DNA of 49,137 nt from a virus. The stretch is from positions 1-49,137 of IMG/VR virus record IMGVR_UViG_3300037628_001000; one strand, given 5' to 3'. Made by a program: the position numbers and the translations under genes. Under the pieces are notes generated by a model. That model worked only from the letters and a program-made list of their open reading frames with translations, was not told the origin of the DNA and did not search any database. Below, piece by piece: positions 3,798-13,021 of this stretch (positions are counted from its first letter, which is position 1; each line of letters opens with the position of its first letter).

Positions 3798-4168
3798 CAC
3801 TCTGCTCTCGCTTTCAGTGCGGCAAGGCAGATGGCGAGGGCAGGGGTTGCTGCGTTATAATCATCCTCAAACCCCGCGCTCGTACTTTCAACTATCGCGC
3901 ATGCGGTTTCTGCTACTGGATCACCAGAAACAGACCATCGCCTACCCTCCGGCAGCAACGTCAACGCATCATCAATGCTTCCGGTGTAATCTAGCGCCAG
4001 CAGACGATGATCCCCGTCAGTGGTTCTTATCCAGTAAGTACCGGGAATTTCGCGATCTTCCGGCAAATAGTGACGACGGGGGTCAAGAAAAACCGCAATC
4101 TCTGCATTCAGGCGACGATCCCGACTCTTTGCCAGCGCCAGATAGGCCATCAGTTCAGCGGGGGTCAT
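3797..4168 (-). CDS. Phage ABA-sandwich domain protein
   Basis: A 123-aa protein with the features of the small phage alpha/beta 'ABA sandwich' family (DUF2591-like). The N-terminal helix LMAYLALAKSRDRRLNAEIA is followed by a central SIDDALTLLPEGRRWSV strand-turn segment, and a C-terminal ATPALAICLAALKAR helix ends the protein. These proteins are common among early genes of proteobacterial prophages, and their function is unknown. The start is set at the ATG overlapping the nuclease stop (TGATG); GTG codons further upstream are possible but less likely. Confidence 0.7.
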   Translation of the reverse strand: MTPAELMAYLALAKSRDRRLNAEIAVFLDPRRHYLPEDREIPGTYWIRTTDGDHRLLALDYTGSIDDALTLLPEGRRWSVSGDPVAETACAIVESTSAGFEDDYNAATPALAICLAALKARAE

Positions 4169-4623
4169 CAGCACCACCCCTGACGCCAGCCGCCGTGGTA
4201 TTCACGGCCCAGCCCGGCTTTGATCAGCAGGGTGGCCAGATTGTGGTCGTTGATCATTACGCGTGCCACCATGCGGCTGGCGTACTTGCCGGGTCGGATG
4301 TCGTGAAGGGTTACGGCGCCGCCTGTGGCGTCCAGTCTGGCGATGACGAAATCCCTGGCCTGTTTGGCGCCGGTGGCTTCCTTGGCGCAGCGCGACCGCA
4401 ATTCCGGGGTATCGACGCCATCGACCCGGATCGTTACCGATGTCCGCAGGCTGGGCCAGGGCGCGGCGGTGACCTTGATCGTGTCGCCATCAACCACCCG
4501 TTTGACGGTGGCGGCCACCGGCCCCCTGATCCGCTCTGCGCCCAGCGCCTCACCGCTGACCACCCCGGCGGCCAGCACAATGGCAATTATGACGGCGCCC
4601 AGTGCGACCGCGCGGACCATCAT
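4168..4623 (-). CDS. Exported thermonuclease-like (SNase) protein
   Basis: A 151-aa staphylococcal-nuclease-fold protein. An N-terminal hydrophobic segment (about residues 5-28, signal peptide or anchor) precedes the OB-fold nuclease domain, with VKRVVDGDTIKV at 40-51, TIRVDGVDTPEL at 64-75, the KEATGAKQARDF helix at 81-92 and YASRMVARVMI later. These correspond to the Ca-binding aspartates and the Arg/Glu/Arg active site of SNase (R66, E82 and an Arg in SRMVAR are the likely equivalents). Known family members cut DNA or RNA. An exported nuclease in an early phage operon is unusual. Coupled at both ends. Confidence 0.8.
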   Translation of the reverse strand: MMVRAVALGAVIIAIVLAAGVVSGEALGAERIRGPVAATVKRVVDGDTIKVTAAPWPSLRTSVTIRVDGVDTPELRSRCAKEATGAKQARDFVIARLDATGGAVTLHDIRPGKYASRMVARVMINDHNLATLLIKAGLGREYHGGWRQGWC

Positions 4624-6273: not shown

Positions 6274-6303
6274 AAAGTAAGGGCAGCTTACGTTTGTTGT
6301 CAA
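6274..6303 (-). promoter_or_regulatory. Leftward early promoter (PL-like)
   Basis: On the minus strand TTGACA (6303-6298), an 18-nt spacer and TACTTT (6279-6274) form a promoter aimed at the leftward operon. The interrupted palindrome GTAAG-N5-CTTAC (6277-6291) overlaps the -10. The rightward promoter at 7905-7934 has the same -35, spacing and -10, which strengthens both calls. Confidence 0.7.
6277..6291. promoter_or_regulatory. Candidate repressor operator at PL
   Basis: The inverted repeat GTAAG-GGCAG-CTTAC overlaps the leftward -10. The same half-sites, without the 5-nt spacer, occur at 7922-7931 over the rightward -10. An AATTTACTAAAA dodecamer upstream of each -35 (6308-6319 and 7881-7892) may be a second site. 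Confidence 0.55.
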
Positions 6304-6368: not shown

Positions 6369-6974
6369 TTATAGGGATTCCGACCAATACGCCTCGCCAA
6401 GAATTGCGATTGCCGATCCCGCGTTCTTCATTTCCAACGCTTTTTCAATTTTTCTGCCGTATGACGAGTGAACCCAGCTGTCAGTGGCATATATGCCGAT
6501 CACCAGAAAATCCGTATCTTTCGTTAATGATCCACCGGAACCGCCGCGGGTCGTAACGGCGGCGGTGCATTCCTTTCGGGTGCCATACAAAAACGTTCCG
6601 GTAAAACAAAACCGCCGGTCTTTAAAATCCAATTTTGGCGGTGGCGCGTCGATTGGGAGCGATGTGGATTTTTGCAGCTCGCCAAGTCCAAAGTTGCCGC
6701 CGGAAAACTGTTCCAATGTCTCAAACAGATCCCGGCTTTCATCCTTCGACAAAACACCATCCATCAGCATTTCGGTGACCTGATCAAACAGATTTCCAAT
6801 GATGGGGTTGGCGCTTACCGCCTTGTTTTTTGCCAGCCATTTGTAAAGGAATTCTGCCTCGATCTGGTCAAGGACGCCATCTGCCAGCAGCCCTTGTGAC
6901 AGGCCAATCAATTCGTCAATTTGACGCTGATCTATCTTGCTGCGATTCACTCTGCCGATAACGGGATTTGACAT
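6369..6974 (-). CDS. BRCT-domain protein in lambda rex position
   Basis: A 201-aa protein with two parts. Residues 1-100 form two similar helical repeats (IDELIGLSQGLLADGVLDQ and FDQVTEMLMDGVLSKDE). Residues about 118-190 form a BRCT domain of the NAD-dependent DNA ligase type (KDRRFCFTGTFLYGTRKEC, then LTKDTDFLVIG). BRCT domains bind DNA ends, nicks or phosphoproteins. It lies 37 nt downstream of the repressor on the same strand, between the two operator regions, so it should be made in the lysogen. Possible roles are exclusion of other phages or repair-linked sensing; both are inference. Confidence 0.8.
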   Translation of the reverse strand: MSNPVIGRVNRSKIDQRQIDELIGLSQGLLADGVLDQIEAEFLYKWLAKNKAVSANPIIGNLFDQVTEMLMDGVLSKDESRDLFETLEQFSGGNFGLGELQKSTSLPIDAPPPKLDFKDRRFCFTGTFLYGTRKECTAAVTTRGGSGGSLTKDTDFLVIGIYATDSWVHSSYGRKIEKALEMKNAGSAIAILGEAYWSESL

Positions 6975-7011
6975 GGCTATCCCTATTCTTTGTTAAAAGA
7001 ACTGCTGGCTT

Positions 7012-7836
7012 CTAATCTTCCGCCACACGATCACCGCTGAAGCGGTCCGGGTCGATCAGCGATTCCTGCACACCCACCACCCCGGCGATAATTTTCAACC
7101 CATTGGGTTGGCTGGTTTCTCCAGGACTATCAAATTCCACCGCCGCTTCTTCGGCGCCGGGTGTGATCGGCGGCGCGCAGGGCAGCGGGGCCTGGAAGTC
7201 AAGGTGATCGCTAAGGGGCCATAAATAAGACTGACCATCCCGCGTCTTATATTGCCGCGCAATCAATTCAGCGTAGCCGTTCCGCCAGTTTTCGGCGATA
7301 ACGAAGTCGTTTTCCTGCAATCCCTTGGGGATGTCCTTTATGGCGGTACATATCAGAATAGTGCCCGGACGCCACCGCTGGTTTAGCGACGTATCCGCCA
7401 GGACAAAACCAAACAAATCACCTTCACTAAGCAAATTATCCCTGGAAACCATTAAACTGAATTCCTTCCAACCATCGGGTGAAACGGGGTTCCGTTGAAA
7501 CCGGAACGCGCAAATCTCTCCGATTATAGAAACACGGACGAGATTTAAATCAAGGTCGTTACCCGATAGAAGATGAGGATTGTGGGGATTACCGGCAGCA
7601 ATATCATCTGGTTGTGCATAACTGGTATTTTCATCGCCAATCATAAGCCATGCAATATTGACATTTAAAAGGCGCGCAAGCTCGATCAGCCGTTCTTTGC
7701 GGGGGATGGTCGAATTCTTGGGTGATTCCCATTGCGAGACTGCTTCGCGCGAGACGCCGAAATGCTTGGAGACGGCGGTTTGCGTGAGCCCTGCTTTTTT
7801 TCGAGCCTGTTTAATTCTGTCGGAAATAGTTGTCAT
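7012..7836 (-). CDS. CI/LexA-type phage repressor
   Basis: A 274-aa repressor. Residues 5-60 form a Cro/CI helix-turn-helix (LTQTAVSKHFGVSREAVSQW). Residues about 100-215 resemble the S24 peptidase/dimerisation fold, with ADTSLNQRWRPGTILI standing where LexA and CI carry the catalytic serine region (S150 is the likely equivalent). The lysine expected later in that fold is not obvious in AELIARQYK, so RecA-stimulated self-cleavage is uncertain. The divergent Cro-like gene and the operators on both sides identify it as the lysogeny repressor. There is no Shine-Dalgarno sequence before its ATG, as for lambda cI made from PRM. Confidence 0.88.
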   Translation of the reverse strand: MTTISDRIKQARKKAGLTQTAVSKHFGVSREAVSQWESPKNSTIPRKERLIELARLLNVNIAWLMIGDENTSYAQPDDIAAGNPHNPHLLSGNDLDLNLVRVSIIGEICAFRFQRNPVSPDGWKEFSLMVSRDNLLSEGDLFGFVLADTSLNQRWRPGTILICTAIKDIPKGLQENDFVIAENWRNGYAELIARQYKTRDGQSYLWPLSDHLDFQAPLPCAPPITPGAEEAAVEFDSPGETSQPNGLKIIAGVVGVQESLIDPDRFSGDRVAED

Positions 7837-7904: not shown

Positions 7905-7934
7905 TTGACAAATCAGCAAAGGTAAGCTTACTTT
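7905..7934 (+). promoter_or_regulatory. Rightward early promoter (PR-like)
   Basis: TTGACA (7905-7910), an 18-nt spacer and TACTTT (7929-7934). The perfect 10-bp palindrome GTAAGCTTAC (7922-7931) covers the end of the spacer and the -10. The Cro-like ATG follows the -10 after only 6 nt with no Shine-Dalgarno sequence, so the transcript probably starts at the ATG itself. Confidence 0.7.
7922..7931. promoter_or_regulatory. Candidate repressor operator at PR
   Basis: Perfect palindrome GTAAGCTTAC overlapping the -10 of the rightward promoter. It shares GTAAG/CTTAC half-sites with the interrupted palindrome at 6277-6291. The different half-site spacing (0 versus 5 nt) is odd for a single dimeric repressor. 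Confidence 0.55.
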
Positions 7935-7940
7935 TGCAGC

Positions 7941-8135
7941 ATGTCAGAAACCATTCTTGCAAAAATCAGCGCGATATTGCCGCTTCCAAAGCTGGCTGAC
8001 GAACTGGGTATCCGCCCGCAAGCCATCTATCAATGGAAGCGCATTCCGGTTGGCCGCGTTCTTCAAATTGAACGGCTGACCGGCATTTCCCGCCACGAAC
8101 AACGCCCGGATATCTACCCGAAGGAGGCCGCTTGA
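7941..8135 (+). CDS. Cro/YdaS-like regulator
   Basis: A 64-aa DNA-binding protein with a Cro-like helix-turn-helix: LPKLADELGIRPQAIYQWKR is followed by IPVGRVLQIERLTGISRHE, the hallmark of the YdaS/Cro group in which the recognition helix precedes an IP-x-x-R-x-x-x-IE segment. It is the first rightward gene, divergent from the repressor, and would switch the phage to lytic growth. Its start codon sits 6 nt after the promoter -10, so its mRNA is probably leaderless. The last residues overlap the next ATG by one base. Confidence 0.88.
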   Translation: MSETILAKISAILPLPKLADELGIRPQAIYQWKRIPVGRVLQIERLTGISRHEQRPDIYPKEAA

Positions 8136-8840: not shown

Positions 8841-9395
8841 ATGATGAAACGGGTTTTGATGGCGCTGACCGCGCGCCTGCCGGCACGAGAGATTAAAGGC
8901 GATGACGGGGATGCGTATCTTGAACGCTACTGGCTGGGCCGGGCGTTCGGATGGACGTTCTATATTCACCGGTTCGTGGCGAGCGATCCCGACAGGGGCC
9001 TGCACGATCATCCCTGGTCGCTGGCGGTCAGTTTCGTTCTGCTGGGTGGTTATCTGGAAGAACGTCTGGTTTCAGTCGGGGCAGGGGGGCTGGTAACACG
9101 GACCCGCCCCGTCCGACCGTTCGCCTTCAATGTAATCAAGGGCGCCGATTATCACCGGGTCATTATCCCGATGGATCGGTCCGAAGCCTGGTCAATTTTT
9201 GCGCACCGGGCGAATTCCAAGGGGTGGGGGTTTTTGCGCCACGTTGACGCGGAACACGTGGACGGGTTCAGGGTCTTCACCTTCCGGTCATATCCATCCA
9301 GTGGCGGTGACTGGCACCAAAACGCCCCCACCGGCCGCCAGCTGCGCGGCAAGCAGGAATTTTCCAGGGAATTGGCGCGGGAGCGGGCGGCATGA
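8841..9395 (+). CDS. Cupin-like hypothetical protein (184 aa)
   Basis: A protein seen in many alphaproteobacterial prophages, usually annotated as hypothetical. The centre has FYIHRFVASDPDRGLHDHPW followed by LLGGYLEE and FAFNVIKGADYHRVII. These are beta strands with histidines placed as in the metal-binding motifs of cupin barrels (HDHP and a later H). No enzyme activity can be assigned. A GGGGGAAG Shine-Dalgarno sequence precedes two adjacent ATGs, and either could be used. The stop overlaps the next ATG by 4 nt. Confidence 0.65.
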   Translation: MMKRVLMALTARLPAREIKGDDGDAYLERYWLGRAFGWTFYIHRFVASDPDRGLHDHPWSLAVSFVLLGGYLEERLVSVGAGGLVTRTRPVRPFAFNVIKGADYHRVIIPMDRSEAWSIFAHRANSKGWGFLRHVDAEHVDGFRVFTFRSYPSSGGDWHQNAPTGRQLRGKQEFSRELARERAA

Positions 9396-12992: not shown

Positions 12993-13021
12993 AAAGTAGG
13001 ACAAATTTGTCCTGTTGTCAA
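12993..13021 (-). promoter_or_regulatory. hicAB promoter with operator in the spacer
   Basis: On the minus strand TTGACA (13021-13016), a 17-nt spacer and TACTTT (12998-12993). The palindrome at 12999-13012 fills most of the spacer, so HicB binding there would block polymerase. The same -35 and -10 hexamers occur in the PL- and PR-like promoters. Confidence 0.75.

Follow-up and report, generated by a model that had tools for sequence, protein, structure and literature searches.

The question raised by this locus is what a BRCT protein might do when its gene sits directly behind a prophage repressor, in the place that the rex genes occupy in phage lambda. In the window, by which we mean the whole 49,137-base IMG/VR virus record that was analyzed, such a gene runs on the minus strand from an ATG at 6974 to a stop at 6369 and encodes 201 amino acids. 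The first-pass annotation had suggested that the protein is a sensor of DNA ends or nicks, probably expressed with the repressor, and had proposed it as a good candidate for an exclusion or defense system not previously described in this form.

The gene and its place in the immunity region

The open reading frame at 6369–6974 is a real gene, belonging to the phage family PHROG 3989 (E 7.9e-56, with residues 16–201 aligned to positions 105–292 of the 296 in the profile), which is uncharacterized. Relatives covering at least 80% of its length are found in 17 phage records, and the family is under purifying selection, with dN/dS ratios of 0.05–0.15 in seven pairs of related phage copies where these could be computed. 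In NCBIfam, the protein matches the BRCT end of PRK06195 (3e-7) and that of LigA (4.6e-4); Pfam gives no match, neither to BRCT nor to PF05099. We rejected an identity as NAD-dependent DNA ligase, because a protein of 201 residues lacks the adenylation and OB domains and its alignment covers the BRCT part only. Searches of Pfam, PHROG, NCBIfam, and PADLOC found no RexA sequence in the protein, with matches to BRCT and ligase families only; no effector domain was found in it, and its best match to a known defense family in PADLOC-DB was PDC-S48 at E 0.029.

Upstream on the same strand lies a prophage repressor with a helix–turn–helix of the P22 C2/434 type (7012–7836), assigned by domain and family profile matches. 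The 37-bp gap between the repressor stop and the BRCT start (6975–7011) contains an AGGGA stretch resembling a ribosome-binding site, and no terminator-like site was found on the minus strand between the two genes. A putative PL promoter (6275–6303, minus strand) consists of TTGACA (6303–6298), a 17-bp spacer, and TTACTT (6280–6275), and a putative PR promoter (7905–7933, plus strand) has the same arrangement, with TTGACA at 7905–7910, a 17-bp spacer, and TTACTT at 7928–7933. PL overlaps the palindrome GTAAGGGCAGCTTAC (6277–6291) and PR overlaps another at 7916–7937, each containing GTAAG/CTTAC; both are predicted to bind the repressor. The flank to the left of the BRCT gene and that to the right of the repressor align locally with a score of 43; scores of 500 dinucleotide shuffles, taken over both strands, averaged 20 and never exceeded 38. 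The promoter pattern occurs once more in the window, at 13021 on the minus strand, with a different −10 box. Since matched promoters point outward on both sides, the repressor and the BRCT gene are enclosed by two operator/promoter regions, with only 125 bp separating the BRCT gene from the first open reading frame of the PL operon. The first-pass annotation had described this topology as that of lambda cI-rexAB, and the plan is indeed the same, behind the repressor, between two operators, and on the same strand, with one gene instead of two.

In lambda, rexAB is read together with the repressor. For the window, cotranscription of the BRCT gene with the repressor is likely by analogy with a homologue in Vibrio phage K139/kappa, which supports the earlier suggestion that the two are probably expressed together. 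This homologue, orf2 (kp3), the best documented among the relatives behind a repressor, aligns over 89% of the query at 31% identity and is the next gene after cI in an operon that is annotated as lysogenic and whose transcription start has been mapped; the GenBank record describes PL as “transcription of lysogenic operon,” with the start site preceding cI, orf2, glo, and int. It differs in its length of 301 amino acids, carrying the whole N-terminal domain twice, and in being followed by glo and int. The annotated exclusion gene of K139 is the third gene, glo, and no function for orf2 is reported in the accessible literature text.

The first gene of the rightward operon encodes a Cro-like YdaS/P22_Cro helix–turn–helix protein (7941–8135, plus strand; Pfam YdaS_toxin 9.3e-12, P22_Cro 3.8e-9). 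The −10-like hexamer of PR stops only 7 nt before its ATG at 7941, so the transcript would be leaderless or nearly so. Further along, an open reading frame at 8841–9395 matches PHROG 4786, annotated as cysteine dioxygenase, which is unusual for a phage early region. The repressor itself has no close relatives in IMG/VR and no recognizable S24 protease dyad; its C-terminal half aligns with S24 repressors in register but very weakly (probability 3), and the position of the catalytic Lys is not conserved. Induction of this prophage by RecA-driven repressor cleavage may be absent.

A predicted 5′-phosphate site and duplicated TerB-like hairpins

On profile and model comparisons, the C-terminal domain (about residues 115–201; 6372–6632, minus strand) is a member of the BRCT superfamily, of the DNA-binding LigA/RFC1 class. 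A PDB search with a 68-sequence profile returned the BRCT domains of human RFC1 (6.5e-7) and LigA (1e-5), and an AlphaFold2 model built on the 68-sequence alignment (mean pLDDT 89) shows four N-terminal helices and a BRCT fold, joined by a linker that is poorly defined around residues 91–105; the pTM of 0.55 does not fix how these domains are placed relative to each other. The solved structures nearest to the model in Foldseek are again the LigA and RFC1 BRCT domains, including RFC with nicked DNA. NCBIfam, profile search, and model therefore agree with the first-pass annotation on the presence of a BRCT domain.

In yeast Rfc1, the 5′-phosphate site is formed by Thr166, Gly167, Arg174, and Lys209 (PMC9359705). 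The corresponding predicted contacts in the 201-residue protein are T125 (codon at 6600–6602) with G126, R133 (6576–6578), and K175 (6450–6452), all on the minus strand, where the spacing of eight residues from T to R equals that of T166–R174 and K175 is taken as Lys209. These residues are conserved in 67/68 (T125), 68/68 (G126), 68/68 (R133), and 67/67 (K175) of the aligned sequences. The protein differs from RFC1 and LigA in being a stand-alone protein with a helical domain, without clamp-loader or ligase parts, and in a 7-residue insertion ahead of K175, relative to Rfc1, that carries a near-invariant W167-x-H169 (W167 in 67/67 sequences and H169 in 66/67). In another RFC structure, the 5′ end occupies a different place in the complete clamp loader, and the same paper cites tight binding of recessed 5′-phosphate DNA by the isolated RFC1 BRCT domain (PMC9293004). 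Retention of the T/G/R/K site in nearly all 68 relatives supports a nick or end binder. Phosphate pockets of BRCT domains can also bind phosphoproteins. Among molecular functions, binding to 5′-phosphorylated nicks or ends has the best support and is likely, in keeping with the sensor of DNA ends or nicks that was first suggested.

The N-terminal helical domain (residues 6–94; 6693–6959, minus strand), delimited from models, an internal repeat, and a TerB-like motif, is composed of two helix–loop–helix units, each with an acidic DG-x5-E motif (D32/E39 and D72/E79). Within the 68-sequence alignment, E39 is invariant and D32, D72, and E79 are each found in 67. The two halves align with each other by profile (hhalign probability 80, E 1.3e-5), so the duplication that the first-pass annotation had noticed holds. 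The same DG-x5-E hairpin is shared with TerB (PF05099), at an hhalign probability of 84.7 versus at most 1.5 in 20 column-shuffled controls. We rejected a full TerB domain, given that Pfam shows no PF05099 match, and kept the motif resemblance alone; the middle helices of TerB are missing from the N-terminal domain. A Foldseek search of this domain against the PDB returned nothing below E 0.8, and TerB was absent from the matches. The domain is likely to serve in docking or oligomerization.

Recurrence and mobility among relatives

Relatives were collected at 166 loci (80 from a genome scan, 80 from a viral scan, and six phage records), and repressors were located with an iterated profile seeded with four repressors. 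A repressor on the same strand, with its end no more than 500 bp upstream, accompanies 66 of the 86 phage copies and, once these are grouped at 70% identity, 10 of the 21 phage clusters; because Pseudomonas aeruginosa phages dominate the viral set, the count by clusters is the more reliable of the two. Control open reading frames of at least 150 amino acids from the same loci have a repressor in that position in 13/519 cases (2.5%). The rex-like placement thus recurs across unrelated phages, and many of the repressors in front carry an S24 domain. In species genomes, a repressor precedes the gene at 9 of the 80 loci and is missing at the other 71.

The Pseudomonas phages phi1, PG1, vB_PaeS-D14L, and Lodos encode homologues with 38–39% identity over 96%. 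In phi1 and PG1, the BRCT gene lies behind an S24-type repressor, with the difference that in PG1 and its relatives a partner gene of about 130 amino acids intervenes, whereas in Lodos no repressor adjoins it. Lodos-like P. aeruginosa phages (L006, L121, L127, and L145) carry the BRCT gene after an integrase and a BamE-like gene, with no neighboring repressor, and their BRCT protein is 98–99% identical to that of phi1. Relatives in Pseudomonas phages are annotated as “NAD-dependent DNA ligase” or as BRCT proteins; the former name is wrong, because only the BRCT domain is common to these proteins and ligase. The protein of about 130 amino acids is encoded directly before the BRCT gene at 49 loci and behind it at two more (for example, L027:4211–4600 and L001:3568–4017), both on Pseudomonas chromosomes and in PG1-type phages. 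It is likely a functional partner of the BRCT protein; it is absent from the window, and no known family was found for it at these 51 loci.

A hydropathy scan of the genes behind the BRCT gene found no recurrent membrane gene, on which ground a RexB-like partner was rejected, and no recurrent toxin gene was seen there. In SNW-1-like clusters, no repressor lies in front and the BRCT gene is divergent from a CII gene; in Sulfurimonas phage SNW-1 itself, a gene for a staphylococcal-nuclease-type (SNase) protein follows directly. The window also encodes a secreted-looking protein of this type at 4168–4623, in the leftward operon 1.7 kb downstream of the BRCT gene. Among the 166 loci, such genes occur only at L003 and, weakly, at L071, and the SNW-1 and window nucleases both start with a signal-like leader, which makes the nuclease an unlikely effector partner of the BRCT protein. 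In Iodidimonas muriae (L008:3807–4847), the gene in front of the closest BRCT relative, at a distance of 99 bp, is that for a phage major capsid protein E instead of a repressor.

Judged from a tree of 95 rows, the BRCT gene is exchanged between bacterial chromosomes and temperate phages: the label phage or chromosome changes 21 times, at least 14 of which are forced by well-supported branches, with labels that are approximate, as a locus scored chromosomal may sit in an unrecognized prophage. Its occurrence is patchy (21 of 119 Pseudomonas, 3 of 289 in the class of Jiella, and 3 of 246 in the phylum of the genome with locus L026), so that it does not count as a core repair gene. The BRCT proteins of phi1 and the PA7 prophage are 98% identical and the repressors ahead of them 36% identical, and BRCT genes that are 98–99% identical lie behind such dissimilar repressors or without any (L002, L063, and L006). 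The protein therefore does not depend on one particular repressor, and the gene is probably not tied to one.

The BRCT gene has ligA directly upstream at L026 (12 bp) and L064 (overlapping) and about 1 kb downstream at L057; by a rough estimate, chance would give well below one such locus for a single-copy gene, against the three seen. At L013, an AAA_27 ATPase gene overlaps the BRCT gene. However, ligA adjoins at these three loci only, and most chromosomal neighbors are unrelated genes; no defense genes were found among the neighbors in species genomes.

Possible roles in the lysogen

We propose that the gene product is a nonenzymatic adaptor binding DNA nicks or ends and coexpressed with the prophage repressor. 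Like that of RFC1, its BRCT domain would hold the 5′-phosphate at a nick, at a gap, or at a double-strand end, and the tandem helix–loop–helix domain with its TerB-type hairpins would dock or oligomerize. As a mobile accessory gene placed repeatedly behind phage repressors, it should be active in the lysogen, where its main job may be guarding or helping to repair host and prophage DNA, rather than attacking incoming phages. We rank this maintenance or repair role first and give it about an even chance of being correct; it is favored because the BRCT domain is of the LigA class, ligA lies near at three loci, and the AAA_27 ATPase gene overlaps at another. The rex-like position, typical of exclusion genes, counts against it, as do the patchy occurrence of the gene, the restriction of ligA neighbors to three loci, and the ability of BRCT phosphate pockets to bind phosphoproteins.

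That position recurs, and together with the high mobility of the gene and a fold of the DNA-end-binding type it is what speaks for exclusion or defense, in which a protein made by the lysogen would recognize a superinfecting phage by its DNA ends, nicks, or replication intermediates and stop it from circularizing or replicating, alone or through a host effector, in the manner of RexA. The RexA of a Pseudomonas putida prophage is a DNA-binding protein (PMC12894663), as is predicted for the 201-residue protein. The TerB-type hairpin can be counted on the same side. Ter loci are known for phage inhibition. RexAB, however, acts through the membrane protein RexB, and unlike the lambda and P. putida systems the window has a single gene of unrelated fold and no RexB-like membrane effector. 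The protein has no effector domain, membrane or toxin genes do not recur behind its gene, PADLOC gives nothing below 0.029, defense genes are lacking beside the species-genome copies, and in K139 it is glo rather than orf2 that is annotated for exclusion. The defense system proposed in the first-pass annotation thus did not find support, and we consider exclusion possible but rather unlikely. Somewhat less probable still is its most specific form, a single-protein exclusion system, recruited repeatedly from chromosomes into the rex position of many unrelated temperate phages, in which the TerB-motif/BRCT protein detects 5′-phosphorylated ends or replication intermediates of the invader and stops infection.

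The protein might instead regulate the choice between lysis and lysogeny, its binding to broken DNA altering the repressor or the decision and providing a damage input where RecA cannot cleave the repressor. Its position and the want of a clear S24 dyad in the window repressor would fit, as would the divergent CII gene of SNW-1 and a July 2026 preprint in which, for Roseobacter prophages, cI genes and BRCT genes are named as alternative regulatory modules (PMC13345283). Yet repressors have been swapped ahead of near-identical BRCT genes, many repressors in front carry S24, and most species-genome relatives have none in front, which makes control of induction improbable. Least probable is a helper of the phage cycle, which would act on the ends of the phage's own injected DNA to protect or join them, its adjacency to the repressor being incidental. 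A LigA-type BRCT domain would suit it, and the weaker Foldseek matches include a phage heterodimeric DNA ligase (PR1, 9hu3) and the BFVD matches phage “NAD-dependent DNA ligase subunit B” proteins; but the gene is grouped with the repressor, its transcription leads away from the replication genes, regular pairing with a catalytic ligase gene is not seen, and many relatives lie outside recognizable phages.

As to novelty, the gene family and the K139 placement, with orf2 behind cI in GenBank, are already public, and BRCT genes have been noted before as part of phage control modules (PMC13345283), so the description “not described in this form” holds in part: no functional test was found in the accessible literature. 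What seems new is the recurrence of the rex-like placement in unrelated phages, the intactness of the phosphate site, the nature of the N-terminal domain as a duplicated TerB-like hairpin, and the movement of the gene between chromosomes and phages. The misleading database name of NAD-dependent DNA ligase could be corrected. Genes linked to the repressor are among the few kept on in a dormant phage, and hence usually serve the lysogen. A conserved, predicted DNA-end binder in the repressor slot of unrelated phages from several bacterial groups would point to an unstudied lysogen function, which may be DNA maintenance, control of induction, or exclusion.
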